DNA of 64,000 nt from Podaxis mareebaensis. Taxonomy: Eukaryota; Basidiomycota; Agaricomycetes; Agaricales; Agaricaceae. The stretch spans positions 1 to 64,000 of the forward strand of contig JAEUWP010000480.1 of NCBI GenBank assembly GCA_018524725.1, read 5' to 3'. Under the pieces are notes generated by a model. It made no database searches and was not told the origin of the DNA. It saw only the letters and a list, made by a program, of their open reading frames with translations. Shown here piece by piece: positions 2,288 through 54,036 of this stretch. How positions within the stretch are numbered: position 1 is the stretch's first letter; each line of letters opens with the position of its first letter. A program made the translations under genes and the position numbers.

Positions 2288-2371
2288 ATTTCCAGGGTTC
2301 GCTGGCGTAGCTACAGAAGACCTACGGAGATTTCCAGGGTTCGCTGACGTAGCTACAGAAGACCTACGGAG
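2288..2371 (-). repeat. 42-bp tandem duplication of a terminal exon and its splice acceptor
   Basis: Positions 2288-2329 and 2330-2371 are tandem copies differing at one base. On the minus strand each copy carries a splice acceptor (CCGTAG followed by GTC) and the complete last exon of gene A. The upstream acceptor gives a tail ending EPWKSP then stop (stop 2322-2324). The downstream one gives EPWK then stop (2286-2288). Two usable ends therefore exist for one gene. Confidence 0.85.
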
Positions 2372-4690
2372 GACCATTGTGTCAACATCACACGTTCTGT
2401 ATGAGAACAAAGCAACTCACTCCCAAGTAATAAACGAGCAATCTCTTGATGTGAACACCTTCCTGGCCGTCGCTGCCAGGCTTGTTGAGGGTCATATCGC
2501 CAAGAGCATACAGGTAGAAGGCGTATTGTTGGATGTCACGCAAAGCAGGGGTGGGATCGTAGTATTCGCGAGTGAAGTCAGCGGTGTACCACCAGTTATT
2601 ATCCTTGGGAGTCTCATCGCTGCCATAACGCATCATGTGGTCAACGATATCATCATACACTGCGGCTATAAAGTGCGGGGAAAGGTTAATTTGTAAGGAC
2701 GGGATGGATTACAAGAATGCGTACCCATAGCGAAATCGGGGAACTTCCTATCATCTCTCCTACAACACGCGAACAAGTTCAGATGACTGACTGCAAACGA
2801 GGCCAAACGTAAACGCACTTAAACACTTCGGCGTCCATCCAAGCCTCGACTTCTTCCCGGGTGACAGGGTAAGACTTGAGTTGGAGCAACTCCTCGTACC
2901 CGTCAACCCTGCCTCCAGGTTTCTTGTTCGGAGGCTCCGAATCCGTGCCCTTATACTCGAAGTTGAATTTCTTCGCAAATTCCTGGGTGGCGTAACTGTA
3001 CATGAACTCTTTGAGCTGGATGGGATCACTGATGTCGCCTGTCCCAGTGTCTCCTTCAATGTGTTGGCGGAGGTTGTTACAGAGGACCTTGAACAGTTCA
3101 CGCGCAAGTTCTTGGTCGGCGTTTTGGCGTTCATAAAACATCTATGGCAAAGATAAAACGGGGTTAGGTGGAACGAAATTGATACACACCGTCATCATGT
3201 AGATGTATGTGACGGAGATGCCGACTTGGGTGTCCGTTGTCTTGTGGTCGTACCAAGACATGATGATACCGGTTTGTCGGATAGGGTTGTTCGTGGGGTC
3301 AGCAGGGACGTAAGTCTTGTCAAGACGCGTGAGGTTCCAAGACTCGGTCGAGGCATTGTTCAGAATTGACTTGTATTGTTCAAACGTATCCTTCATTGCC
3401 ATGCCTATTCACGACTTGTGAGAAAGGTAGGGAATCGGAGGAGACAAGACTAACTCTTGACAGACGGCAACGGAATGTTGATACCGCTGTAAAAAGATTG
3501 TCAGCAAACAGACATCGGGTGAAAGTGTATGAAGTACCTGTAGACTTGGTGCTCGATGTAGTTCAGCAAGTCGTCAGTGTCGGTATCTGGGATGTAGTAC
3601 AACGAAGTATTCTGCGTGATGAACGCGCTGTCGACGCCTTGCGCACGATAGGAGTCTGGAGGAACATCTCCATAGGAGAAGCCGAACTCTGACTGGAATT
3701 TGCCTTTAGCATAGCTGTCGAGGGTGTTTTTGAGAAGCTCATCTGTGGTAGGGACGCTACCGCCCTGATCAAGCCAGCTTAGCTCGTGTACGCTGCTTCG
3801 TACCCAGGAAACCTACGATTAGATTGGCCGCGCCTTTGTATGCGTTAGCTTGAATCTCGTCCCGAGTAGCCTTTGTCTCAGAAGTCGTCTTGTAGTAGAC
3901 CTAGAAGAGGTCTCAGGAGAATGGCGAGAAATGGGTTGTTCAATGACTTACACCACAGTAGTAGATGACGGCAAGTTCAGCCCGAGTGCCATCTTCGACG
4001 AGGGTGCCGAAGCAGTACACCATGACAGAGTTACACTTGAAGGTGTCCTGGTCTTCCACCCTGGCATCGTAGGTCCTTTGGTAGTCATTATATTTCCATT
4101 GCTTCTCAGTGTCGCGCGATGCGATAATGTTTGCAACATTAGAGAGGTCATTTATAGCAGTTTCTGTTAAGCACAACGAACAGCGCCAGTCAGCATCAGG
4201 GAGAGGATGTGCGTAACGGAGGACATACGTTCCATCCACGCGGGCAGGTCGAGTTGGCTGTTGGAAAAGTACGCGTTAACCAGAAGGTTTCCTGGCCTCG
4301 GAACGGCAAAAGCTACCTGAAGATACCGGCCTTCAGGTAGTCGGTGACTTGGTTACCAATCGGTGGGATAATGCTGCAAATCTTTGCGGCGGTTCTCGTG
4401 TCGCCAAGGTTGTTCGGAGGGTTGGTTTGTGCTGGGTCGTCACTATATTCGTACTTGTAGGTCTGTTTGAAGCGATTGGTCGCAATCTTGTTGAGCAAGG
4501 TCTCGAGGTTTGTCGTGTCATCCGTGATGTTGAAGTCCTAGGCGCAGCGGAACATTAGTTCGGGCACAGGTGTAAAAAGAGACAAAGGTCATGCCTGCTT
4601 GAGGAGGTTGCGGGCGTTGTCCGTCAGTTGCTTGACGAGATCAGCCTTGACGTCTTCCAACGATTTCTTGGTTTCTTCGGAACCGCCCAT
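2322..4690 (-). CDS. Gene A: three-module protein of unknown family (paralogue of B and of the C-terminus of C)
   Basis: Twelve exons: 4595-4690, 4317-4537, 4229-4257, 4163-3952, 3900-3817, 3764-3538, 3486-3455, 3404-3190, 3141-2819, 2759-2725, 2665-2421, 2363-2322. They sum to 1,761 nt, or 586 residues. The first intron has a GC donor. After a short charged N-terminus (TKKSLEDVKADLV) come three related modules at about residues 40-190, 215-375 and 395-575. Each has a helical start ending in F..(E/K)F.F.Y, a short LP motif, then W..., an RTY- or KTY-type segment, a T-rich beta stretch and a closing YY.GV. No signal peptide, membrane segment or recognisable catalytic motif is seen, so it looks cytosolic. 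Intron positions and phases match gene B. The function is unknown. The final exon is tandemly duplicated. A TATA-like ATATAT lies near 4760-4770. Confidence 0.8.
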
Positions 4691-5532
4691 GATGTGCGAA
4701 GGTAATGTAGTAAAGGAGAAAAGCTCAAGTGATTGTAAAGGGGATGCTTTTGCGCTCTGGATATATGTACACAAGGAGGCCCCCCTTCCATGACGTGCCT
4801 CGATATGGAGACTCGTTCTTGAGCAGACACAGATAATCGATAACCTTGACAGAACAAGAACATGTTCTAGTGCGGAGATTACCCAAGGTCTTCTAGACTG
4901 TCCATCAGAAGCCAAAGCGGAGGGAGGATGGGACCGAGCCCCATGACCACAATTCATGGGAGTAGATTCGAAATAAAGCGTGTAGAAGTTGAAGTCGAAG
5001 TCGGGCGCGAATAAGGGTGTCGCCGGGAATAGAACCACCCTCGGGCAGACTCTCGGTGTCAATGCGAGTTGTCGCTGTCTGGAATTTTGGGACGCGGTGG
5101 AGTCATGACAGGCATTCGCGAAAGTACAATGAAACCACCACTGAGTGCAGGATGCTAGTGATGTCACAACTAATATTAACGGTCGATGTTCATCGAGATC
5201 AAGTTACCAGTGACGAATCCGAATGGAAAAAGATTCCAGACGCGTGAGAATTGCATTGCAGATTCAGGCACCACTCCCCGTTTAGCGGTATAATTATGTA
5301 GCGCTATTCGTGAGGCACGGTCGGGGGTCCTCGGTTCGGGTTTTGGAGTTCCGTCCCTTCGAATTTGATGGCCGATCATAATGCTCTTCCATGTTCCCTC
5401 TGACCTCTGCCACCATGATCTGTTCTAATCTCCCAATTCTGCCGCGTCCAAATACCCTACTTGGCCTCGTCATAAGGAGAGCTCCCGTTCGCAAAACCAT
5501 CCAGTACAACCTTTTCCCTTCCTCTGAGCATC
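4691..5532. promoter_or_regulatory. Shared divergent promoter region of genes A and B
   Basis: This 842-bp gap separates two head-to-head paralogous genes. A TATA-like element on the minus strand (about 4760-4770) lies roughly 70 bases before the gene A start. A pyrimidine-rich tract (about 5505-5530) lies just before the gene B start and has no obvious TATA box. No other gene is evident. A 192-codon minus-strand frame in this gap (5167 to 4589) runs in frame into the start of gene A, but the TATA position and the alignment with B favour the start at 4690. Confidence 0.5.
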
Positions 5533-7974
5533 ATGGGTATTTTCGGACGCAAGGAAACACAGCCTCCCAAGAAGACCTACGAGCAGGTTTTTGCTGACCT
5601 TGTCAAAAACCTCTGTGAGAAGGCTAACAATACCCTCCCCAACGTGAGATCGACCTCATTTGTAACTGACTTACTCGCTGAACACGTCTCGTAGCCTATA
5701 ACTCTCCCAGCCCAACCTACGCTCAGTGACCTAGAGCAGATTTTCAAACAAATCACACACAACGAGTTCCAAAACAGACTCGGCTACCAATTCGACACGA
5801 CGAACGCCGCGCCACCCGCTCTTGCCCCTGGGACGCTTGTTCTCAGCACCTTCGAGCAGTTCTACAAGGTCGATGACCCCAACAAGCCTGTCTCCCCTCC
5901 GCTAGGCTCTTCCACCACGACGACCGGCGGTGGGACCGATCCCTCATTCACGCCCATCCCGGATGACCGTCAACGTATGTATATCTCCCGTGCTACAAAC
6001 AGAGGACGATATTCATCCTTCCGCTTCAGCCCTTTCCCAGATTCTCGACGACTTCAGAAGCCGAATCACAGGTCTTCCCGACTGGGTCCAAGGTTCATGT
6101 TGAATGCTACTCGAAAATGGCAGTCGCTGACTCCACCTTTTTTTAGGAGAGGCTCAAGATGAAGCCGTCCAGAACCTTGACCGAGTGTTCAATGAACCAA
6201 CGGCTCTTCCGAACGACTGGAGTTTCGACGTCAATACGCCCATTTACGAGCAGTCTGACAAGTACGCCAACTCTATCCGCCTGGACTGTATCTTCGTCAA
6301 ACTGTCGGGGACGCTTACGGAGACAGACGTTACCGCACAACTCAATACCGTCTATTGCGTTGGAGTACGTGCGCTGCAGGTTCACTAGAAAGTCACTGAC
6401 AATTTTCCAGATTTATTACGAAGTTATATCTGCGGCTATGATTGCCAAGAAAGCCCTCTGGAAGCAGTTGTACACCCTAGCAGAGAGTTTGCTAGATACG
6501 GTACTAGTTTCGTTCCCTTTCGACTTCGCAAACTCTCACTTCGCATTCTCTCCAGCCCACTGCAACTCCAGAAGACCCGAGTGCAGCCTCGTTGGAAGAT
6601 ATCCTCATCTGGTATCGCGACCACAAACTTTTCCAAACTGATCACGGTTTTCCATTCAATGGCACTCCGGATGATCTTGTTGCGGATCTTGGTCGTCCCA
6701 CACATCTCTTCATTATTGAAGACGACGACTTCTCTAAGCTGTCCCAAGAGATTGAGGAGAATATTTTCAGGTCCGTCACAAGCTTATCCCATTGTAACCA
6801 TTCCTCATATAACTCCATTATCCAGCAAGATCAACCTCCCGGAATGGGCCGGTATGTCCCTTTCCGAGCTGTTCGTTAATCAGACTTTAACTTGGACTAT
6901 AGTTACTGTGAAACCTGATTTGCAATCCGAAATCGAAAGCCTCCTCAAGTCTCCGGCCTCCGATTCCCGCGGGTGGCTCTCAGTGAAGTACGACACATCG
7001 CCGCCGCCACCGAACGAGGACGACCCAGCCCTTCTCATTAAGGGGGACTTCATTTATTGTAATCTTGTATCGCCCAACCGCAGTGATGTCACTTATCGTG
7101 CCGTATACTTCTGTGGCGTATTCTATATGATACCCTCGGCCAAAGAAAGAGCCACTCAGAAATTGCTTTCTGCCGTTTACAAGAATGCTTTGGGTCTGGT
7201 TTCCGACGTACGCCCGTTCTTCCTTGGCGTTATCAGGAGGAGTTCTGACTTTTTTTGCATTTCTTCTTAGAACCCTGGGACCCCACCCGACCAGCCTACT
7301 CGCTCCGACCTCGACACTTTACTTTATCGAGCTTTGGATCAGAAGTTCCAGGAAGAGTTCAATTTCGCTTACGAAGGAGATAAGACCGCTCCAGGTGATA
7401 AAGTCGGAAACACACTTTATGCTGCTAAAGTTAGTTTCGACTCCGAGACTCGTGACGATGCAGCTGCTACCGAAACAGTCCAAACCATCATCAGGTGATG
7501 CGTTTTTTCGTATTCTGGCCGATGGAAGAAAGGCTCACAGGGCATGATAGTGCTTTCAACTTGCCTTCCGATACAAATGGTACGTCTCTCCAAATCCATT
7601 TTAGTCACCTCACTCATCCACGGATTCCCCGTCAGAAGAAGCCTTTCGCCAACAGATCAGCAACGACATCCTATCGAAGGTCAAGCGATGCCTCGAGGCA
7701 GATCCAGTCCTCGTTCCACTCAACTCATGGAATGCCATGAGCGACGATAGACAATATTCGTACTCTGACCCTGCGAAGAGCGACCTTATTCCGGTTCTCA
7801 AGACTATTTTCTTGTATTGTAATGCAAGTATTACCACTGAGCAGACAGTGGCTAAGCGTAGCTTCATCTACTTCGTTGGGGTGCGACTTTTCCCTTCAAT
7901 CCAGTCTAATTCTCCGTCATTTTTGCTCACGAACCTTACAGGTGCTCTACGACACTGAATCGGAGCCGTGGTGA
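5533..7974 (+). CDS. Gene B: three-module protein of unknown family (paralogue of A)
   Basis: Twelve exons: 5533-5643, 5695-5974, 6030-6092, 6147-6364, 6411-6500, 6556-6770, 6826-6851, 6903-7207, 7271-7494, 7533-7579, 7636-7880, 7942-7974. They sum to 1,857 nt, or 618 residues. The N-terminus (MGIFGRK, then PKKTYEQVFADLV) matches the point where the same part begins in gene C (WIFGSRPKKTREQV), so B looks like the C C-terminus as a stand-alone protein. Three modules lie at about residues 45-226, 262-408 and 440-610, with LPDW and LPEW motifs and FNFAYEG in the third. The tail ends SEPW. No signal peptide or membrane segment is seen. The acceptor of exon 10 (AAAG at 7529-7532) is weak and that junction is the least certain. 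The function is unknown; the family relationship to A and C is clear from residues and intron positions. Confidence 0.8.
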
Positions 7975-9047
7975 ATCTGACGGTGCTGTTCGCATGGACT
8001 GATATCAAGAACGCTTGGTAAATGCTCGATATGTAACCTTGTATAACTTGATTCGTATGTACGACTTGTTGAGTATCAAATATATTGTGGTCCGATCAGA
8101 ACTCCTCGGACATCAATTTACGAATTAAGAGAATGGCTCGGGATCAATTATGCCCAGCCACAGTTGGCTAGAATCAACAGTGTGGAGGCATGAGTCTTCT
8201 AGGACCCGGGAGTACATACCACTTGAGCAAGGTAAATGTGGAGAACGACGGCAGTAGTAGCGGCCACACCTATGACGCAGCGGATGAGCACGTATAAGAG
8301 CATCGATGTCCGGTGTCTTCGACAGACGTTGCCGATCAGAATTCTCGAACAGTGCTACAAGTATCTTTTCCTCCCTTCCGGAACACGACCCACGAAGTCG
8401 GGGCACGGGCAGAAGCACGATACCGAACGCGTTCGCGTGGAGTTTTACCAAGTCTCGGTGGTTTTTGCTCACGCCACCACTTGGCTAAATGCGGGATATG
8501 TACGAGACATATTGCTTCTTGGATACGTAAACATATGGGTGGAGCTTCCATCGTAACGGTCTCAGAATAAAGGCGTTGAACGGATGCCCGTACGCATCGC
8601 ACAGTGCTTCGGGCAAGGACACGTGTGCTTGTTCGGTATCCAAGATTTTTGGACCTCAGCACCACATGCATCACTCACAGAACACTGGCCATAGTCTTAG
8701 CCGACCTTAATCCTCACCGGGAAGGGAGCGTATTCGGTCACGTCGTGCCAACCGAAGACACACCAGGACACACCTCCAAAGTCTTATCAATCAATTCTCG
8801 TAATTAGCCGTTAATCGGTCCCTTTTGCCCTGAAAAAAGGGGACCGGTCAACGGTGTTATGCAGTTCTGTCCGACACCGAGATATCAATAGATCGCACTA
8901 GCGTGTCCCCTAGCTCTTACCCAATTCGAAGCTAGATAAGGATCCATTCTTAGACTTGGGGTCTGACCAATTACAACGAGGGTGCACCTAGGGCTGGATA
9001 TATACACATCCTAGGGTACTGCATGGTTAAGGTCAAGCACTACAAGC
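7975..9047. other. Intergenic stretch with a possible small minus-strand gene
   Basis: On the minus strand an open stretch (about 8360 to 8222) starts at ATG in CGATGCTC and encodes a hydrophobic segment (VIGVAATTAVVLHIYLAQ). It is followed by a well-formed intron (GTATGT...TCTAG) and a very short last exon ending near 8133. Further upstream (to about 8670) more open frame exists, but the joins are unclear. It could be a small membrane protein or a relic. A TATA-like sequence at 8998-9005 belongs to gene C. Confidence 0.25.
8998..9005 (+). promoter_or_regulatory. TATA-like element of gene C
   Basis: A TATATA run lies about 45 bases before the ATG at 9048 and only about 20 bases before the ATG at 9023. 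With transcription starting about 30 bases downstream, the 9048 start is favoured. Confidence 0.45.
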
Positions 9048-12000
9048 ATGACTACAACTGCCAAAACAGCAACTCTACACGTTGTGAGTCGCCCGTTCCT
9101 CGAGCGACGTGTTACTCAGGGCTTTCACTTCGTGAAAGATACAAGCAAGCTATGGAGACGCTCTCGTCCTGGAATACAAAGATGCGGGGACTGGTGATAC
9201 TGTACGAAGCTTCGGCGATCTCCTATGTCGTCGGGCACTCTAACCTGTGGAACCAGAACTACATGCTCATCGATGGCGGCCCCGCCAGTAATGAGCCCAT
9301 GTACACGACGCCTACGCAGGCGCGCGTGAAATTCAATCTATTTTACACCTTGAATCGTCTTTCAGGCTCTACCCAGGCCGCAGGAACGACTCCTCCGGCA
9401 AATGCCATGAAGAAGATCGATACACTGGTCCTGACGCACGACGACGTGGACCATAAGCGAGGTACTTGGCTTGCAATTGATAGCGTGGTCTCTTCTAACG
9501 AGCTCCTGTTTTGCAGGAATTGAGACCTTGTTCGCCTCTCTGTACGTTCTCTTTGCGTGCCTGGACCTCTTTTGGCTGACATTTCGGGTTCAGCTTGAAT
9601 GTGGCGAAGACATCGAAACACAAAGATGACTTGTACAATACCTGGGTTCTTGGAGACGCTAAGATGGCGGCTAAGGAGAAACCGATCGACCGCATCTGGT
9701 ACAACAGGTTCGTACCCAGGTTAAGAAGTCGAGGTCGTCAACCAAATAACTAGTCTACTAGTCTTAAGAACATCACAACTTTGAGAGTTAGTGTGCCGTT
9801 CATATTTGCAGAAATAACCTTGACTCACTCTTCGTAGACTGGGGATAAGGGAGTTGACCCAATGGATAACTGGTTTGACCTCCAGTTGCAGGCTTATAAT
9901 AAGATCGTTTCACCGGTGATTGATTTCAACACGGATTTTGCTCCAAGCACGGACCCACAAGGACGATCAGGGAAGTTCGCGATGTACAACGCCAACGCTG
10001 CGGCCGGTGGCCCTATGCAGAAGGGACAGTTTACCATTCGGTTCTTGGGCCCAGCCTTTGATGTGCTGGAAAGCGATGTTTTGCTTAGCATGCTGCAGGG
10101 AAAGCAATCTCTGAGAGTTCCTAAGTACAAGTTCGAGCAGCAGTAAGTATTGAGGGATAGGGAAGCTGGCGGTGATTGAATCATGTCATTTACAGAAAAC
10201 TCGGGAAAGCGTCGATGACGGCATTATCTGATTCAACGCTCGATGAGTTCGCCCGACTTGGTCAGGACACGCAACTCCAGGTCAAGTTAGACACCTCCAT
10301 GAAAAACCGTTCCAGTATCGCCTTTATCGCAGAGGATGGCCTAACGCGTATACTGCTTCTGGGAGATGCAGTTGCAACAATCCTGAAACCGCTCTATGCC
10401 CCCGGAGGTTCGCCGGTAGACTTTACGTTGATGAAGGTAAGGCTCGGATCACTTATTTATTCATGTTTGTATTGATGGCACTGGTGGCAGGTGATGCACC
10501 ATGGGAGCAGGTACAACAACTACTGGCCACGCGACGCGCAGCGCAAGGCCGAAGAGCAAAATGTGCCGGTCCTCCAGCAAAATAACTTCGATGTTTCCAC
10601 ACTGGCTTATGTCTACTTCTTCGCTAAGTGAGTTTCCCTTTTTGAATGTTTTGTAATTTTCTCCTTACACTTAACCTACTAGGATTCGCGCGAAGAAATA
10701 TGTCGTGAGTCTTCAAAGTTGGTTTGTAGCAATATGTTCCAGTGATTTTCTCTAAATAGATATCAGCCTCTTTGGACGAACACCCAAATCCTCACGTCGC
10801 TACCATGCTTGGCATCATTATAGCCGCGATGGAGAACCAGACGAACGTCGAGATCTTCCTCACCAACTATCTCGCGCCTGATATCCTCCACACGATCGGC
10901 GAGCGTTTCATTAAGGGCACCGATACTTCCATCCCCTATGTCACCATCCATCTCCTAGCCCAAGGATCTCATTCGGGTGCCGTTGCCATCTACGATGGCG
11001 AGAAAGATGGCTCGGAATGGGTTTCGTATATTGCACGGGATCTTCGCACTTCCTACCCGGATAATTTGCTGAAGCTGAATCCAAAGATTGCGAGTAAGAT
11101 AAAGCAGACGAAGGATTACCGTTTCCAACCATACGTCAAGAAGCCTTCAACGATGCTCAGGTTAGTGCGGGCAGCCCCGGATGACCCTGCCATCGCAACA
11201 ATTCCGTTTGCCTCAGAGATCCCTGCACCCATGCCTGTAGTCCCGCGAGCATCTCCACCTGCAAATATGGTCTCTGCAAAGTTAATCAACTCACCCAGGC
11301 CACCAACCTTTGAGGAACTTACTTCATACCAGGTCAATTTTCCGTGTTCGTTATCTATGCGTTTGATTGGCTTACACGCATTGCTTAGCCTTATCCCACA
11401 CGGAGTCTCTCAGGGTTTGATGAGCTTTTGCAATACCTCGTCTCTCAAAACGAGTTCACCTCTCAAGACGTTGAAAATGCGAAAGCCGATATCGTCAACG
11501 ATAATGGTCTCAAATTTGGCGCCTTCGCTGCCTTGTTCATGGGTATCGAACGATCGGAGGAATTCCTGGCCGCAATTCCTTTCGACTTCGTAGACTCGGC
11601 CGAATACCTCAATTCGTCGGAAGGACCTGCAGAGTGGCGCGTACAGAACCTCTCGACCAGAGTTATTGATCCCCCTAGGTGTGTCAATGTGCCACCTTTC
11701 ATACTTCTATCTAACAGTCATCTTGCAGCTCCGACTTCCAGGGCAGCCAGGGCATTTATTCCCTGTCATTTACCATACCTGCGCAAAGTAGCACGTTGAC
11801 CTGGACAATACCTTTTGATCAGAAAGCGTTTTCGGATCCTTATAAGATCACATGGGATGGATCTATGTCTGTTCAGGTCATCTGGCCCCACTATGTAATG
11901 GGGATCACCTCCGCTGAGTTCCGGGGTCAACTCGTCACGACTACGAAGACCTACAACGTGAGTAGATAGTAATGTCGAGTTTCTGTTGGTCTAAGCCTTT

Positions 12001-15000
12001 GACAGGTTGTTTGTCAAATCCTCCTGATGTTTGATCAACCTACCAGCTATATCGTCCGTTTCGCTGATGAAAATTATGATACCGAAAATTACAAGATGTC
12101 TCTCGTCGACTTAGCTCGAGTTTTTGGCACCAACGTGGAATATGGGTTAGCATTTGATCACCTCATCCTACCGGGTAATCTCTTCACCATCCCTGTGATT
12201 TTCATGCTGACTCTATGTCAGGAATTGAGCATGTGCTCGAAGGCTTGGACATCAACGCTGGACTCGACAACGCTGGGTTTACCCTGCACAAGGTTCTCTC
12301 GAAGCTCATCATCAAAAATTTGTTCGCCGAGCTCAAACTCACGGATATTTCCGCCTGGAATCCTTTCAACTCGCCATTCTCTCTTGAGCTTACGGCCTTA
12401 CGGATCATCGTCGAGGATGCGTATTCTCCAGCTGATCGAAAGGTATGGCTTTTTTTCTTCCTATCGACAGGTTGTCTGATGGCCTTTAGATCCTCGGGAG
12501 ACTTATTGGCGTTGCTCACACTTCCGGTGACACAGACATAAATCTCCCAATTCAGTTCACCGTCCAATATACCCCACAACAATTCCTTCTGTACGAGTTG
12601 GCCCTTCTTCCTGGAATACAGGACTCGCTTTCCATTGGTCGCATCCTAGACGTGGTCGGCCTTTCCTCCGCTTTCGATTTGTCACAGACATTCCCTGGAC
12701 TATCCGACCTCTCCAACTCCCTCAGTATATCTCATGTCATTGCTGGCTGGACCTCAGACCCGAAGCCCGATAACCTCCAACTCATGATCTCTCTGGACAA
12801 ATGGGTGCTCGCTGAGGACGTCTTTGAAGTCTCCCAGATCGCGATTGACATTGAAGCCAAGAACCTCACAACGACTGATTCTAGAGTCTTCGCGCTCAAT
12901 GGATGGGGTCTTGTCAATATTGCAAATATTGATGTCGAGGTCTTCTTTGCATATAACCATTCAAGTGATGCCAACGTTCCAGATCAGATTTACTTCCAAG
13001 TCGGAACTCAGCAACGAGCTATCCCGTTGGGGTCCATCATACTTCATCTTTTGGGAGACGGGGCTTCAATTCTTCCGGACGCGTTGTCGTCGATCTTGGA
13101 GGAGACGGTCATGGATAATTTTATTGTCAAGGCGGACAACGTTGGTGGAAAGTGGTCAGTTTCGAAGATCCAGCTATCGATGAGCATCAAGGGCAAGATC
13201 GACGTGTTTGGTATGCTTTCGCCCTTGATCTGGTGTTTGGTGATTGCCGACATGTGTTATAGAAGGTATCGAGATTGCGGAGCCTAACTTAGTCGTCAGT
13301 ATCGACAATCCTTTTGATAAGGTTTGTTCACTTGCATCAGCGAAGCGATCAACACTGATCATCTGCGCGCAGGCGACCAGGGGACTTTACGTCGGCATCA
13401 GCGCCCAGATCGAGATAGCGGATGTCATATGTCAAACTCAATTTACCATCGCTTCGGCCCAGAACAGCGTTATTTCGATGGTCTTTGACGCCGGACAACA
13501 GCCGCTGACGACAGAGGTCATATTAACCCAATTCCTCCCTGGTGAGTAATCTTCTGCGCGAAGTTAAGGTGAATTATACTCAACCGTCTCAGGTGCTGAC
13601 TTCGTTAGCTTGCCTTCGAGCGTCTCGTTCTTAGCTGGAATTGGCATTCAACGCGCGTCGCTCACCCTCGAGATCAATCAGGGCAAATTTTCCATGTCAG
13701 AGATTACCATTTGCGCTGGCTCGACGTCCAAGCTCGAGCTGTGGAAAGAGCTATCTCTTGAACAGATCACGCTCTTTGTCTCTCACTCCAAGTATCGTGG
13801 CAACAAGGTCGAATTCGACGCGATGTTGACGCTCAGCAAGGATCTCGACTTCCTCACTTTCACCCTCGCCTACGACGGACCTTCGGCTACTCCTTCAGGA
13901 CCTTCGACGGATCCCGGAGGTGTCGTCTCTGCTGAGACTCCACCAGGCGCTGTGTGGTCTGCCATGGCAACCTACGAGGGGGAACTCTCTGTTCTTGACA
14001 CGCTCTCGCATATGTCTGGCCTTGAGCTACGAGATATTCTTGATCAAGTCGACCTTCCCGCACTAAAGGACTTCCTGGACATCTACATCACGAAACTTCA
14101 GATAGCGTTCACCCATAAATCTGACAAGTCTTCCTTCTCCTTTGATGCCGATCTCGAGTGGCTTTGCTTCTCTCACCTCCGCTTTGCCTGCTCCAAGACG
14201 GATGTGTGGGCCTACTCATTCGGCTTCGCCATTGGATCCTCCCAGGAGAACCTCATCGAAGACATCCCTGTTCTCGGCCCCATCATTGGTGCCCAAGTCG
14301 CGCTTGAGCATATGTCCGTTGTCGTATACAACTACGATCTCGACGCTGGTGCCCTGGACCCCTTGCTCAATATCCCGAAGACCAGCGGCGGGGGCAATAT
14401 CTCGCTCGCCATCGCATGTCGCCTTGTCTTCAAGGACGTGATGGAAGATTTCACAAAAGTCATTGGTGTGTCCAGCATGGATATTGTTGGTATTGTTAGC
14501 AGCTCGATGGTATCACTCTCTGCTTCTATTGGACAACCTATTACTCTTTTCGATGGCTGTATGTCGTTGTCCGGTGCCATAAAGATCGAGTGTAAGAAGG
14601 AAAACAATATGCTCCCCATGCTGGGAGTTCAGGGTGCGTTTGCTTGTGATATTGTGGTATATCTGAGTCTGACTTACGCAATAAGGTACTGCAACATTGG
14701 ACTTCGGCGAGCTTATTTCCTCGAATGTTATCACTATCTCACTATGGCTGCTCGTCAACACCGCTGATGCCGGTCTGGGTTTCGAGTTCAAGCTTGATCA
14801 CTGGAAGGGCGTTTTTGGTTTCGACGGTCTCAGCTTTGATGATGTAGTCTTCGCTGCAACCTTCCCACCCCAACAATTCCCCATTCCATCGTCCTTTACT
14901 ATCAAGGGCTCGGTGTCGCTGAATATTGCTAAGGAGGGCATCAAAGGAAGGCGAGTTTTTTTTTATATATCTAGTCCTTCGTAGTTTCAGCTGATCCGAA

Positions 15001-18000
15001 ATGCAGTGTCAACCTGCACGTCGTGGAGCAAAACCTGATGAATTCGTACGCTACTGGAAGCATCGAGTACGCCCAAAGCTTTTCCAAAGCATTCATTGAA
15101 TGCTAATCGTCCTTCAGGGGCCTCACGTTGAACAACATCATCCAAATCTTCGCACAAGTTCCACCTGCTCCAGAATACCTCGATGCCGGCTTCGGACCGC
15201 TTAAGTTCGCGATCGTACCGAAAGATACCGTCGATGAAAGTGGCCAGCAATTGAAACAACAATTCATGATGGAAGGTTCTTTCAAGTTGCCTTTCATCCA
15301 CTTTGAAGCCGCTATCAAGATCGACATTACGCCCAGCAAGGTGACGATCGACGGACACTTGAGCCGAATTGTCATTCTCGACGAAAAGCTATTCAGCATC
15401 TTACCTTCTCCAGAAGAACAACCTCCGCCACCACCTGACGCTGGAGCATCGATCCATGTTCATATCAACGACGAAGAGAGCCCGTTCTACGCGCAAGCCT
15501 CAGGAAAACTCACCTTCCTCTCGCTCGAGAAGGACTTGAACTTTGAAATCTCTCAGAAGGGTCTGGAGTTCCTGCTCTCACAAGATGTTTGGGTCAATAA
15601 GGGTAGTTTGAGCGGCTCCATTGACGACACTCACCTCGAAATCGCTGCGTCCTATGAGTTTTCCCTCGACCTTGTCAAGCCTGACTTCACCATTGGAGAC
15701 TTCCATTTCGAGACCACTCGCATCATTGCCTTCGGGGCAGCGCTCTCTCTCAATATCATTTGGGAGAACATCAAGTGGGAGTTGACGATTTCGGGATCGT
15801 TTGAGGCCTTCACGCTCAAGATCCAGAAGTCCTTCACTATCGGAGCAGACCTCATGGACCTGAAAGCCATTGGCGACCAGATTGCCAAGTGGATCGTCGA
15901 GACTCTGGCTCAAGACTTCCTCAATGGTTTGAAGGCCATATTATCATCACTCAAGGAAGTCATCAGAATACTCAAGGAGGCCGGCCTTGTAATGACCGAG
16001 ATCCTAAAATTCCTCATCCACGAACTCGGGGTTGCCTTTGAGGTAGCCGCACAAGCCGTCAAGGAGTTCTTCGGAGTCGCCTGGGATACCATCGTCGATA
16101 TTCTTGACGATCTTGGTTATGTCGCCCAAGAGATTGTTGACGGATTGATGAGAATCGGGGTTGCAGCAATCGAAATCGCCACGTACGTCGAGTCACTATT
16201 TGATTCAAGCCTTTGTTTATGTGGACCCTTTTTACAGTGCTATCGTCAAGAAGTGGGGAGAAGCCGTCAGAGACCTCTGCACAACACTTCTGAAAGAAGC
16301 GGGCGCGATCGCATCCGAAGTCGTTGAGTATGTTGCCTACGTTCTCTACGTTCTCGTTTTTCGCGGTCTTGTGAACTTATGTGTCAAAGGTTCTTCCGCA
16401 ACTTCTTGCACGACCCTGGCCAAGCCATTGTTGATCTCCTGGTTTCCTGGGGACGCAGTATCTTCTCGATCTTTTCCTCTGTCGTCGATGTTCTTGTAGC
16501 TCCATTCAAGGCCGTGCTTGAGTATGACACCACCCCTTTTCTCGCCTCTTTAATCCCTAATCACTCATCCATCTAGTTGGATATTCGGTTCACGACCCAA
16601 GAAAACGCGTGAACAAGTGCAAGAAGAGCTCCTGCTAACTCTGATGGTCCGGATGAATGATCTACTTGACAAGGTGAGATCAGCCATATCTTCAGGAACT
16701 GGTGTTAACGCTGTCATATAGCCTGTTGACATCCAAACTGAAGATGACTTGGAGATTATCATGCGACGATGCTCTGTGCAACGATTCCAGAAGAACTTCA
16801 ACTACTCATTCAACGGCGCCACGACGAGCCCTCCTACCTCGCAGAATCCACAAGCGATAACTGCAACAGAGAACAAGTGCTCGTACACTGACGGTCAGGT
16901 TTCACACATTGATGAATACCGTGATCGTATTTTGAGGTAGGCCATGTTCGTGGATTTCAAAGACGACCATTTAACACCTTGATAAGTGGACTCCAGCTGC
17001 AAACTTGGATGAAGGGTAACGTCTCTTCTAGAAATTTGAAGCTCGTAGCTGACAGCATCTTTAGATGCCGCTACTGCTGACCTGAATGACGAGTTGCAAC
17101 TCCTCATTGGAGTCATCCCGTCAAACTTCTGGCAAGTCTCGGCTCTCAAGAGGACATATTATCCAGCCGACCCAGAGCAAAACCCGGTCGAGCTCAACGG
17201 CATAATCATCTTCGTCAACGGCGCGCTCTCAATTGATGGCCACGATGTCACCAATACCCTGAGCTACTACGTCGGAGTAAGTAGTTCTGATTACGTAACA
17301 TAACCGCCCTCATTGTTGGCATGCCAGGTCTACTACGAAGTCCCGCCACCCGCGCAACTTGCAAGGAAGTCTCTTCAACAAGACGCTTTCAGTCGCGTTC
17401 CAAACGCCAATGTAAGGTCTCACTTGATACATAGGTATCCACACGCCTGAACAATCCTCTCTAGCCGCCGCCAGTAACAGACGAGACGAGCCTCACAAGC
17501 GCGCTTACAATCAATGCTACGAAAGAATTCCAGGACGAGTTCAACTTCGACTACAAGCAACGTCCTCCTGACTCTCAAGACCCATCACTCTTCTACAAGC
17601 CTTTCAATGCGCTATCCTACTTTGAGGACAAGAAGACGGAGGATGTCGAACCATATCTCACCACGAAAATCCTCAGGTCCGGCTGCACCAACTGTTCTCC
17701 TATTCATTGTCTCACGGTCTATATGCAGCATGGCTCCTCTGCCCGAATGGGTGCAAGGTCGGCTTTCTTATCTCCCTGCAGAACACAGAAATGGGAAGCT
17801 GACTCAACGTTCCAGAAAAAGCACTGGCTGATATGGTATCCGATTATGGTCAGATCGTCTCCGGAGAACAGAATGATAACTGGAGAAGTTTCAAAATTGA
17901 TCGTACCTACAGTCGTCAAGGAGAATCTTTCAACGCTGTCAACTGCAAGGGAATAGTCTTCTATTATACTGCTACGAAGACCACTGATCAATCAGTCACT

Positions 18001-18897
18001 GTGTCAATCGCCTATGTCTTCTTCCTCGGCGTAGGTTCTACCCCTTACTCAATGAAAACCATCACTGACCTTTGCAAACAGACCTACTATGAAACCCTCA
18101 ACCATGCTGCTCTCGTTCGTAAAGACTTGATCAGTGACTTGTGCGATAACTTGGTCAAAGACATGAACAACGTGGGTCAACACAACCGATAACCACATTC
18201 CGTGCTGAACAAGGATATCATATTGTCCACAGCCCGAATCCATGCCAACCATACCAGACATGACAAGACTTACAGTCCTCCTCGGTCGTTATGGCCGCGA
18301 CCAGTTCTACAACAAGTATGGTTATGAACTTATGGGTGAGGCCACGAGTCCCGATAAGCTTGTTGCCGGTACACCGCTCTGCACTATCGAGCAAACCGGC
18401 GAATTCGAAAACTGGGATGACCAAAAGATATGGAACTGGATCGATGCCATTCTTTCCGCGTATGTTGAACTTACATGAACGCTCCTTCCGCAAATTGATA
18501 ATCTTATTTTGAAGGAATGAATTCCCTCCCGCGCAGAATAGTAAATTCCCGCTCATTAAGACGTGACTCATTTGCTTAAAGCTTCCTACTTCTAGATCCT
18601 TCTATCCGCCAGGATATGTTTGACACCGTCAAGTACAAGCTCTCCGGCGCGAATGACGCTGGTTTGAACGCATGGAATGTCGATGACTACGACATGAGCT
18701 ACGACTACGACGGATCGACGAAGAACACGAAGGTTGTCGGCATGTTCATTCATACGAATGGAACTTTGACAACAGGAAATGATACCGTCAAAATCAGCTT
18801 TGTTCACTTCTCCGGAGTAAGTGCCCTCAGTCATCAAGTTTTTCCAATTGATTAAGACGGCCCATAGGTCCTTTATGTTGAGGATAACCCCTGGTAG
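9048..18897 (+). CDS. Gene C: giant metallo-beta-lactamase-fold protein with beta-rich region, amphipathic helices and three C-terminal modules
   Basis: About 35 exons, roughly 2,630 residues, stop at 18895-18897. (1) Residues to about 430: ComEC-type metallo-beta-lactamase fold with MLIDGGP, LTHDDVDH (about 9429), LLLGDA and VMHHGS (about 10498), followed by DEHPNPH. The metal ligands look intact. (2) About 480-1950: long beta-rich region with repeated LxLxIxxG-like strands, no named domain. (3) About 1950-2070: amphipathic helices rich in hydrophobic residues and Lys/Glu. (4) About 2070-2633: three modules shared with A and B, starting WIFGSRPKK and ending NPW. No signal peptide is seen. 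The N-terminus is uncertain. An alternative start is 9023 without the first intron, and the AGTGD motif typical of this fold is present in the DNA (9181-9198) but in another frame. At 9834-9891 either a 58-nt intron or a frame break must be assumed. One GC-AG intron lies at 14951-15006. Substrate and role are unknown. Confidence 0.75.
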
Positions 18898-36961: not shown

Positions 36962-39027
36962 ATGTCCGGTCCACCCGAGACCCCTATTAGCTCAACCCAC
37001 GGTCATGATGGGAACGTTGGAGTAGACCCTGAGAAGGTCAACTCACACCCCAGCTGTCTTGCACTTCAACCATCCTTTGACTACTTTCCGCCAGAGCTTT
37101 GGCTGGGGATTTTCCCCTTCCTCAGTGACAAGGACTTGCGCGCCGTTACCCAAACATGTTCAACTTTCCGCTATCTTGCACAACCCTTCCTCTTCAGAGT
37201 TCTCGATATCTGCCCATTCTTCCTTGCCTATAATACCGATCGGCCCATTCGCCGACCACGTCGATATCTACAAAGTACCTTGGATCGACTGGAGTTTTAC
37301 ACTTCACCTCGGATCGCCCCAGCCGTGAACCAACTTTGGATTTCGCCGTACGCTCGGAGTGGTTTCCCTCCCCGACGGCTCACAGATGATCTCGATCCCA
37401 CCCTCATCATCTCCGCCATCATTGACGCACTCCCAGCCTTTCCTAATATTCGCACTTTGGCGTGGCACTGTATTGACATACGTCCATCTTGGTGGGCCGC
37501 GATACAACGCCTACCAAGTCTGACCAACTTATGGGTGAACTCTTCTGCGATTTTACCTTCAACCTCTCCCCGTGCTTTTACACCTCATCTTCCCCTCGCG
37601 CACATAGCACACCTTGATCTAGATCAGTGGGCTTGGGGGGGACACTTAACCAACCATGTCTCTATACATGAGGAACGGTTGAACGGTGTTGATCCACTGT
37701 TGCTTTCCTCGGTCATTCATGCCGAGACTATACAAACAGTCTCAGTCCCTCGCCACAATACTGCCCTCCACCTCCTCTCAATCCTAGCACACGTTGGCTA
37801 CAATAACCCGTGTATGCTCTGCAGTTTGACCCTTCCTTACTCGAGCATCAGCTCCGAGGATTTTATCCCTACCCTCGCACAATCGACGTTGTTGGAAGAG
37901 CTTTACATTTTACCACCTCATGACGAGCATTTCCGTATTCCGGACCTTCAAGACAAACTTCCCAGTACCTCCATCCCTCACCTCAAGGTATACGACGGGC
38001 CATATCGCCTCTTGCCCATCTTCTCAAACGCTCGCCATCACGAGCCACGAAAATTGCGTTTTATTGGACTTTGGGGCTTGGACGAGCAAATCTCGATGAC
38101 AGTGTGCAATCCGCACCAACTAGAGCCAGTTCTACGGGAGTTGGCACACTCAGACACGGCTTCGACGGCATTGGAGACCATCAGTATCCTTTTGACGCAT
38201 ATCACAGCGGAACTATTGACAATTCTCAGTCGTTTTTCCAATCTGAAGGATATCATTCTTGAGTCTCAGGATAGTTTGATACCAGTTCGGTCCTCCCCTC
38301 CGCGCTCGACGACGGAAATATTGCCCGAATCTCCTATTTCGGTATATCCGGCCTTCTATTCTCATAAGCGCTGTACTTACAGGTTTTGTAGGCTTTATAT
38401 GTGCTCTTGCGTTCGCATAGCTTTGCTATCTCGCTTAAACGTCTGACACTTGTCACCCACCTGAAGACTCCGAGCAACCTCGACTCGATGACCCAACAGA
38501 TGGACGCCGCCAGGTTTCTGGAAGACTTTGGGCGGGCGAACCCACAAGTGGATAATATCGACCTCAGATATGGCACATATTGGACCGGAGTTATTGATAT
38601 AATGTGGCACCGGAGGACATTTACGCCACCTGGAGGTTACGAACCGAGGCGGAGCGAACTCAATCCAAACTGGAATGATGGCCACCCCTCAGATGGCGAT
38701 CGCTCGGCTTCACCTCTCGTGACATCCAGTAGCATTCCATCAGTAGTACCGACCACTTCCGGAGCGCCTCAAGTTGCAGTTGAGGAATTATTCGTCCTGC
38801 CTTCGAGACCCCGGATCACAACTGTCATGAACCTTCATCTCGGGAGGATGGTAGTTACAGAGCAAAGACGAGCTGTTGTACTTCCTGAACAGAGACTATC
38901 CTCTGAGACAAAAAATGGAACCCCAGGCTTGAGGTGGGTGGCAGGAGGAATAAGTTGGGCTTGGCGCCTTGTTGGCAGAGTAGGGAGGATGATCGACGAG
39001 GGGATTGGATCCATTCAACGTGGTTAA
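36962..39027 (+). CDS. Gene M: F-box protein with LRR-like C-terminal part
   Basis: Two exons (36962-38341 and 38392-39027) joined over a 50-nt intron; 671 residues. An F-box lies at about residues 38-80 (PPELWLGIFPFLSDKDLRAV, then CSTFRYLAQPFLF), the usual Skp1-binding motif of SCF ubiquitin ligases. The remainder has irregular leucine-rich segments (IRTLAWHC, LPSLTNLWV, IAHLDLD, LKRLTLVTHL) and ends in a Ser/Pro-rich and then Trp-rich basic tail. Hundreds of divergent F-box genes are typical of Agaricomycetes, and the substrate cannot be inferred. The acceptor GTAG at 38388-38391 is preferred over an earlier CAG because only it keeps the frame open. Confidence 0.85.

Positions 39028-50667: not shown

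Positions 50668-54036
<3,369 letters not shown>

Follow-up and report, generated by a model that had tools for sequence, protein, structure and literature searches.

A three-gene locus of triple related modules in Podaxis mareebaensis: a candidate intracellular membrane-active defence set

What might three neighbouring fungal genes do that each carry three copies of the same module? The question is raised by a 64,000-nucleotide stretch of Podaxis mareebaensis DNA (contig JAEUWP010000480.1, positions 1 to 64,000; 'the window'), in which related modules of ~190 amino acids (aa) make up all of gene A, all of gene B and the last 562 residues of gene C, three per gene. The modules have a predicted fold like that of the Cyt/volvatoxin cytolysins, and C begins with a ComEC-type metallo-beta-lactamase (MBL) domain. 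We propose that A, B and C may form a defence set that acts on membranes inside the cell, in which A and B would be partners, a reading to which we give a probability of a little under two in five.

Nine related modules in three genes

Gene A (4690..2322, minus strand; 586 aa) and gene B (5533..7974, plus strand; 612 aa) each have 12 exons and 11 introns, and gene C (9048..18897, plus strand) encodes 2640 aa in 36 exons. The modules are A1 (3952..4690, aa 1–186), A2 (3190..3900, aa 187–372) and A3 (2322..3141, aa 373–586) on the minus strand, and on the plus strand B1 (5533..6364, aa 1–224), which carries an insertion of ~40 residues, B2 (6411..7120, aa 225–407), B3 (7121..7974, aa 408–612), C1 (16577..17276), C2 (17328..18030) and C3 (18082..18897). 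Three adjacent genes with three module copies each had been claimed in a preliminary description of this DNA, and the spliced models, phmmer and profile comparison confirm it; the whole-length alignment of A, B and the C-terminus of C is likewise borne out by one-sequence phmmer searches (A against B, 9e-27; A against the C-terminus, 6e-50; B against the C-terminus, 3e-38). Profile-profile comparison of the modules gives a probability of at least 85% in 28 of 36 pairs; the remaining eight lie at 1.4–55.9%, and four of these are not above the controls (81 comparisons with reversed profiles, maximum 15.5%). The profiles were built from 14 A-type, two B-type and four C-type sequences, with the stop-free A-type copies L046 and L058, the B copies L076 and L077 and the relatives P0003, P0006, P0007 and P0009 left out.

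The three genes also share their intron arrangement, with phases of 0, 2, 1 and 0 in each module. Nine of the 12 intron slots are common to all three genes, in the same phase and within four columns of the alignment, so that the shared positions and phases noted earlier hold for these nine and extend to only two genes in the other three (B has one intron displaced with a different phase and one absent, and A has one absent). The introns are short (46–126 bases) and many per gene, as befits eukaryotic DNA, with GT-AG splice sites throughout except for two GC-AG introns required by the spliced models (4538-4594, intron 1 of A, and 14951-15006, in C). Because splice sites were chosen partly by module-to-module analogy, weight is carried by the spliced alignment of an annotated Macrolepiota protein, P0002, to the window DNA, which is independent of our models and, for gene A only, reproduced all 11 introns. 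The model of C is supported by two relatives, P0004 and a second copy, C′ (see below), and its start was set with P0004; the Pfam search of A, B and C and the comparison with P0004 used an earlier model of 2642 aa in which the first ~35 residues are wrong. All three proteins close with PW near the stop, as described previously (A ...EPWKSP, B ...SEPW, C ...DNPW), and the terminal W is missing in eight of the nine MGNS-type proteins listed. We note that the last exon of A lies within a tandem duplication of ~41 bp (~2288-2370), where a second downstream acceptor would give the alternative end ...EPWK.

The preliminary description also suggested exchangeable parts, and here the profiles point the other way. 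For eight of the nine modules the best match by score is the module at the same position in another gene (e.g. A1–C1, A2–C2, A3–C3 and B3–C3), the exception being B2. The triple array therefore appears to be old and kept in register: it probably predates the divergence of A, B and C, with no swapping of modules since, and we reject exchange.

The predicted module fold and the MBL domain of C

The module has no above-cut-off match in Pfam, NCBIfam or PDB sequences, and to this extent the earlier description of it as unrecognised stands. In VIA-align, however, Cyt/volvatoxin cytolysins rank first for the predicted folds of modules 1 and 3, and the same nine entries head the lists for two different modules in two models; a Cyt/volvatoxin-like fold is thus supported by prediction. 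The Cyt family PF01338 gave nothing at E<=1 with A, B and C, at E<=5 with P0001, P0002, P0004 and P0005 or at E<=10 with P0006–P0011, and a genome search with it at E<=10 was empty, a result of little weight, as the modules are interrupted by introns. A hydrophobic N-terminus is absent from A and B. N-myristoylation-like starts are present in 11 of 18 free-standing N-termini, a count that excludes P0003, P0006 and P0007 (no MG start); A and B do not fit the pattern.

Several other identities were considered and set aside. Sub-cut-off matches taken as chance are, in Pfam, Sde2_N_Ubi_vert (0.066, B), Lactamase_B_2 (0.022, C), Tubulin_2 (0.074) and MOR2-PAG1_C (0.26; both P0002), PBP (0.11, P0001) and PhageMin_Tail (0.2, P0005), together with PADLOC mad5 (0.017, P0002) and a PDB-sequence match to a TorD-family chaperone (1.7). 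A MACPF identity of P0007 comes from an automatic UniRef name and has no Pfam match at E<=10. Comparison of the P0002 model with the viral fold library BFVD by Foldseek gave no clear match; two unnamed viral proteins, M1I283 and M1HBT0, were returned with probabilities of 0.96 and 0.60.

The MBL domain occupies aa 1–~437 of C (9048..10918, plus strand) and has the motifs IDGG, THDDVDH, GDA, HHGS and NPH, all of which are kept in C′ and P0004 (with THDDADH in P0004). HxDxDH, the D of GDA and HHGS are the defining motifs of ComEC-type MBL hydrolases, and the set is present in all three proteins. The best PADLOC matches are LmuA (6.7e-28, residues 8–341), RTasMBL and Avs1a, and the stretch aligned to LmuA is ~66 residues longer than in the model (334 against 268), in keeping with inserts. 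NCBIfam scores are all below cut-off (63.7 bits against 420 for Avs1a, 22.2 against 220 for 6A-MBL and 23.3 against 190 for ComEC_Rec2), and among PDB sequences a competence protein comes closest (0.0093). A genome-contig scan for close bacterial relatives gave 44 pattern matches, none of them confirmed; distant relatives may exist. ComEC-type MBLs are known from the bacterial AVAST, Lamassu, Hachiman and DRT systems; those tested are pro-nucleases activated by a protease (available portion of PMC12799240). A Pfam scan of 10 of the 103 neighbouring open reading frames (ORFs) of at least 95 aa found only F-box-like and GMC matches, and no trypsin- or caspase-like partner in that part. The first is an F-box-like protein (36962-38443, plus strand) and the second a GMC oxidoreductase gene (51.2-55.8 kb, minus strand; Pfam match 51803-52471, with similar ORFs to 55.8 kb by eye).

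Between the MBL domain and the modules, the middle of C (11729..15860, plus strand) is beta-rich by eye with no family above cut-off, and a suspected likeness to DUF6603 was not borne out by Pfam. A short stretch of this middle part recurs at four sites, of which the two inspected (on contigs C410 and C374) have no long related frame. The segment directly before the array (15861..16576, plus strand) is helical by eye and has the highest hydropathy among A, B and C (1.81). Tape-measure matches of the corresponding stretch in relatives are weak (best 1.8e-4, P0005) and more likely due to long amphipathic helices than to common descent, and a phage origin of C was rejected.

Copies in the genome and relatives in Macrolepiota

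Searches of the 37-Mb assembly (429 contigs, the window being on C288) scored only the best candidates, and the locus counts are lower bounds. There are at least 19 A-type loci, gene A and 18 more. Ten of the 18 have no in-frame stop (L003, L005, L030, L035, L046, L055, L056, L058, L060 and L064) and eight have one to six stops and are apparently broken (L002, L004, L057, L059, L061, L062, L063 and L065). Five of the 23 loci modelled are C-type pieces outside this count, from which fragments at C146:23.3 kb and on C148 were also excluded. The B-type loci number at least four (in the window and on C146, C364 and C19), each adjoining an A-type gene, and B is absent from the other 15 A-type loci. 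No stop is present in the four B models or in the A genes beside them, although two of these B models include small exons that are in doubt; L076 and L077 have odd small exons where the aligner may have bypassed a stop, and the model ends of L046 and L058 are uncertain.

A second complete C, designated C′, is on C146, and its reading frame of 2656 aa is uninterrupted. This region reads C′ (minus strand), A′ (minus strand), B′ (plus strand) and then, where a second C would start, an MBL-only remnant of a C-type gene (L079, C146:18700-21200). The grouping of two free-standing forms with one fused form, first seen in the window, thus recurs in the four A–B pairs and in this second region. In a tree of 21 stop-free rows the A copies beside B cluster with P0001 and P0002 (support 85/97), and the C415 copy, without B, falls in the MGNS group (90/74). 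B itself lies on a long branch. Copies on C231 and C228 (83% and 71% DNA identity to A) lack a neighbouring B and are broken; the comparison of A copies beside B with these two (4 of 4 against 0 of 2) is only suggestive, given the small numbers. A further region (C382:192-205 kb; L019-L024, L046 and L064) has two A-type copies and fragments resembling module C3 with 55-74% identity.

Three protein searches (~8000 candidates scored in each) returned 11 proteins, ten from Macrolepiota fuliginosa and one from a JGI contig. M. fuliginosa has A- and C-type proteins, and no B-type protein of this species was found in these searches. P0004 is 61% identical to C over 99% of its length (earlier C model), and since the contigs of P0001, P0002 and P0004 are all listed with a length of 138,317, linkage of A- and C-type genes is probable in this species too. 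P0005, a C-type protein of 2306 aa, has no MBL match; its contig is only 22 kb and the protein may be cut.

Possible roles and known systems

We favour a defence set because of the cytolysin likeness, the absence of a hydrophobic N-terminus, the myristoylation-like starts, the turnover of copies, the presence of A beside every B and the antiphage-type MBL; what the analysis shows is that the modules are homologous, that introns are shared, that the gene sets recur and that the MBL motifs are present, while membrane action, a functional pairing of A with B, nuclease activity and a defence role are inferred. For Cyt toxins and volvatoxin A2 it has been proposed that helix layers swing off the sheet, which then acts on the membrane. 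The modules of A and B could work likewise, making these intracellular membrane-directed proteins of three linked modules an effector and its partner or regulator. Three modules per chain would pre-assemble part of the oligomer, and B would restrain or complete A, in the way that A2 is held back by volvatoxin A1, which is of double size. C would couple its array to an antiphage-like ComEC-type MBL hydrolase that is probably a nuclease, combining membrane action and DNA cleavage in one protein, and the set would kill or disarm the cell upon infection or non-self contact. The preliminary description had thought the locus possibly self/non-self or conflict related; a self/non-self role is putative, and on conflict the predicted fold and the antiphage-like MBL bear only by likeness.

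The leading alternative, itself rather unlikely, is that these are cytoplasmic toxins, stored in the mushroom, that would permeabilise the gut cells of feeding nematodes or insects in the manner of volvatoxin, with C as a large accessory toxin. It draws on the same fold evidence and the same lack of a hydrophobic N-terminus in A and B, many diverging copies suit a toxin repertoire, and volvatoxin A, a mushroom cytolysin, has two parts, of which the double-size one is inhibitory (available portion of PMC9230820). The myristoylation-like starts nevertheless point to the fungus's own membranes, albeit not for A and B, and an antiphage-type MBL better suits intracellular use. Less probable is that the fold call is wrong and the module is a new alpha/beta sandwich of merely similar packing, against which stand the nine shared VIA-align entries.

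The ratio of nonsynonymous to synonymous substitution rates (dN/dS) is 0.21-0.56 over eight pairs of stop-free copies, with module 3 lowest or tied in seven (0.14-0.35; the exception is A/L003) and maxima of 0.82 and 0.70 in modules 1 and 2. Among 60-column windows in two pairs, a few have dN >= dS; these lie close to the N-terminus, within module 2 and at the C-terminus, and are no proof of positive selection. Ratios below 1 in all eight pairs would suit a non-toxic use of the fold, with modules binding lipid or another ligand as a scaffold and an MBL with a housekeeping substrate, and likeness of fold does not establish function (the VIA-align lists have PAS, START-like and thioesterase rows further down), but the eight apparently broken copies of 18 and the likeness to defence-type MBLs would be unusual for housekeeping and make this the most doubtful reading.

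Returning to the defence set, its fullest form is a fungal immunity or conflict system undescribed in the papers searched, which uses triple Cyt/volvatoxin-fold modules as the cell's own membrane-attack pair (A and B) together with a giant C joining an array to an antiphage pro-nuclease of bacterial type; as a whole this is unlikely to hold. In the open-licence PMC literature (subscription papers being outside its scope) we found no paper that combines volvatoxin with metallo-beta-lactamase, Macrolepiota fuliginosa with pore-forming, or myristoyl with pore-forming, fungal and volvatoxin, and no matching paper on tandem or multidomain Cyt-like or volvatoxin proteins of fungi; the available portion of a 2025 review of fungal cell death nowhere has 'metallo', 'MBL' or 'volvatoxin'. 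Should the fold call be right, a family of triple Cyt-like proteins that is both large and unannotated is present in these fungi, with one branch joined to an MBL such as bacteria deploy against phages. This would tie fungal cytolysins to intracellular immunity and give a testable pair, A with B, and a giant, C.

Compared with known systems, the modules resemble Cyt and volvatoxin A2 (PF01338 and the fungal volvatoxin clade) in a predicted order of helix hairpin, strand, helix hairpin and antiparallel strands, and A and B would form a two-part set as volvatoxin A1 and A2 do. They differ in that no sequence similarity was detected, that each chain has three modules and that, in C, the array is fused to an MBL giant; no one-module form was met in searches that were not designed to find one. 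C has the motifs of the antiphage ComEC-type MBLs (LmuA, Avs1a, RT-associated MBL and HamM) and its best PADLOC and NCBIfam profile matches among them, but it falls below the family cut-offs, is eukaryotic and has its MBL joined to a beta-rich part and a module array. The pore formers of fungal cell death (HeLo/HET-S and the gasdermin-like RCD-1) differ in that A, B, C and their relatives have no match to their Pfam families and the function of A, B and C is putative; the likeness to them lies in a possible intracellular membrane attack and in clustering with a partner gene (available portion of PMC12881547).
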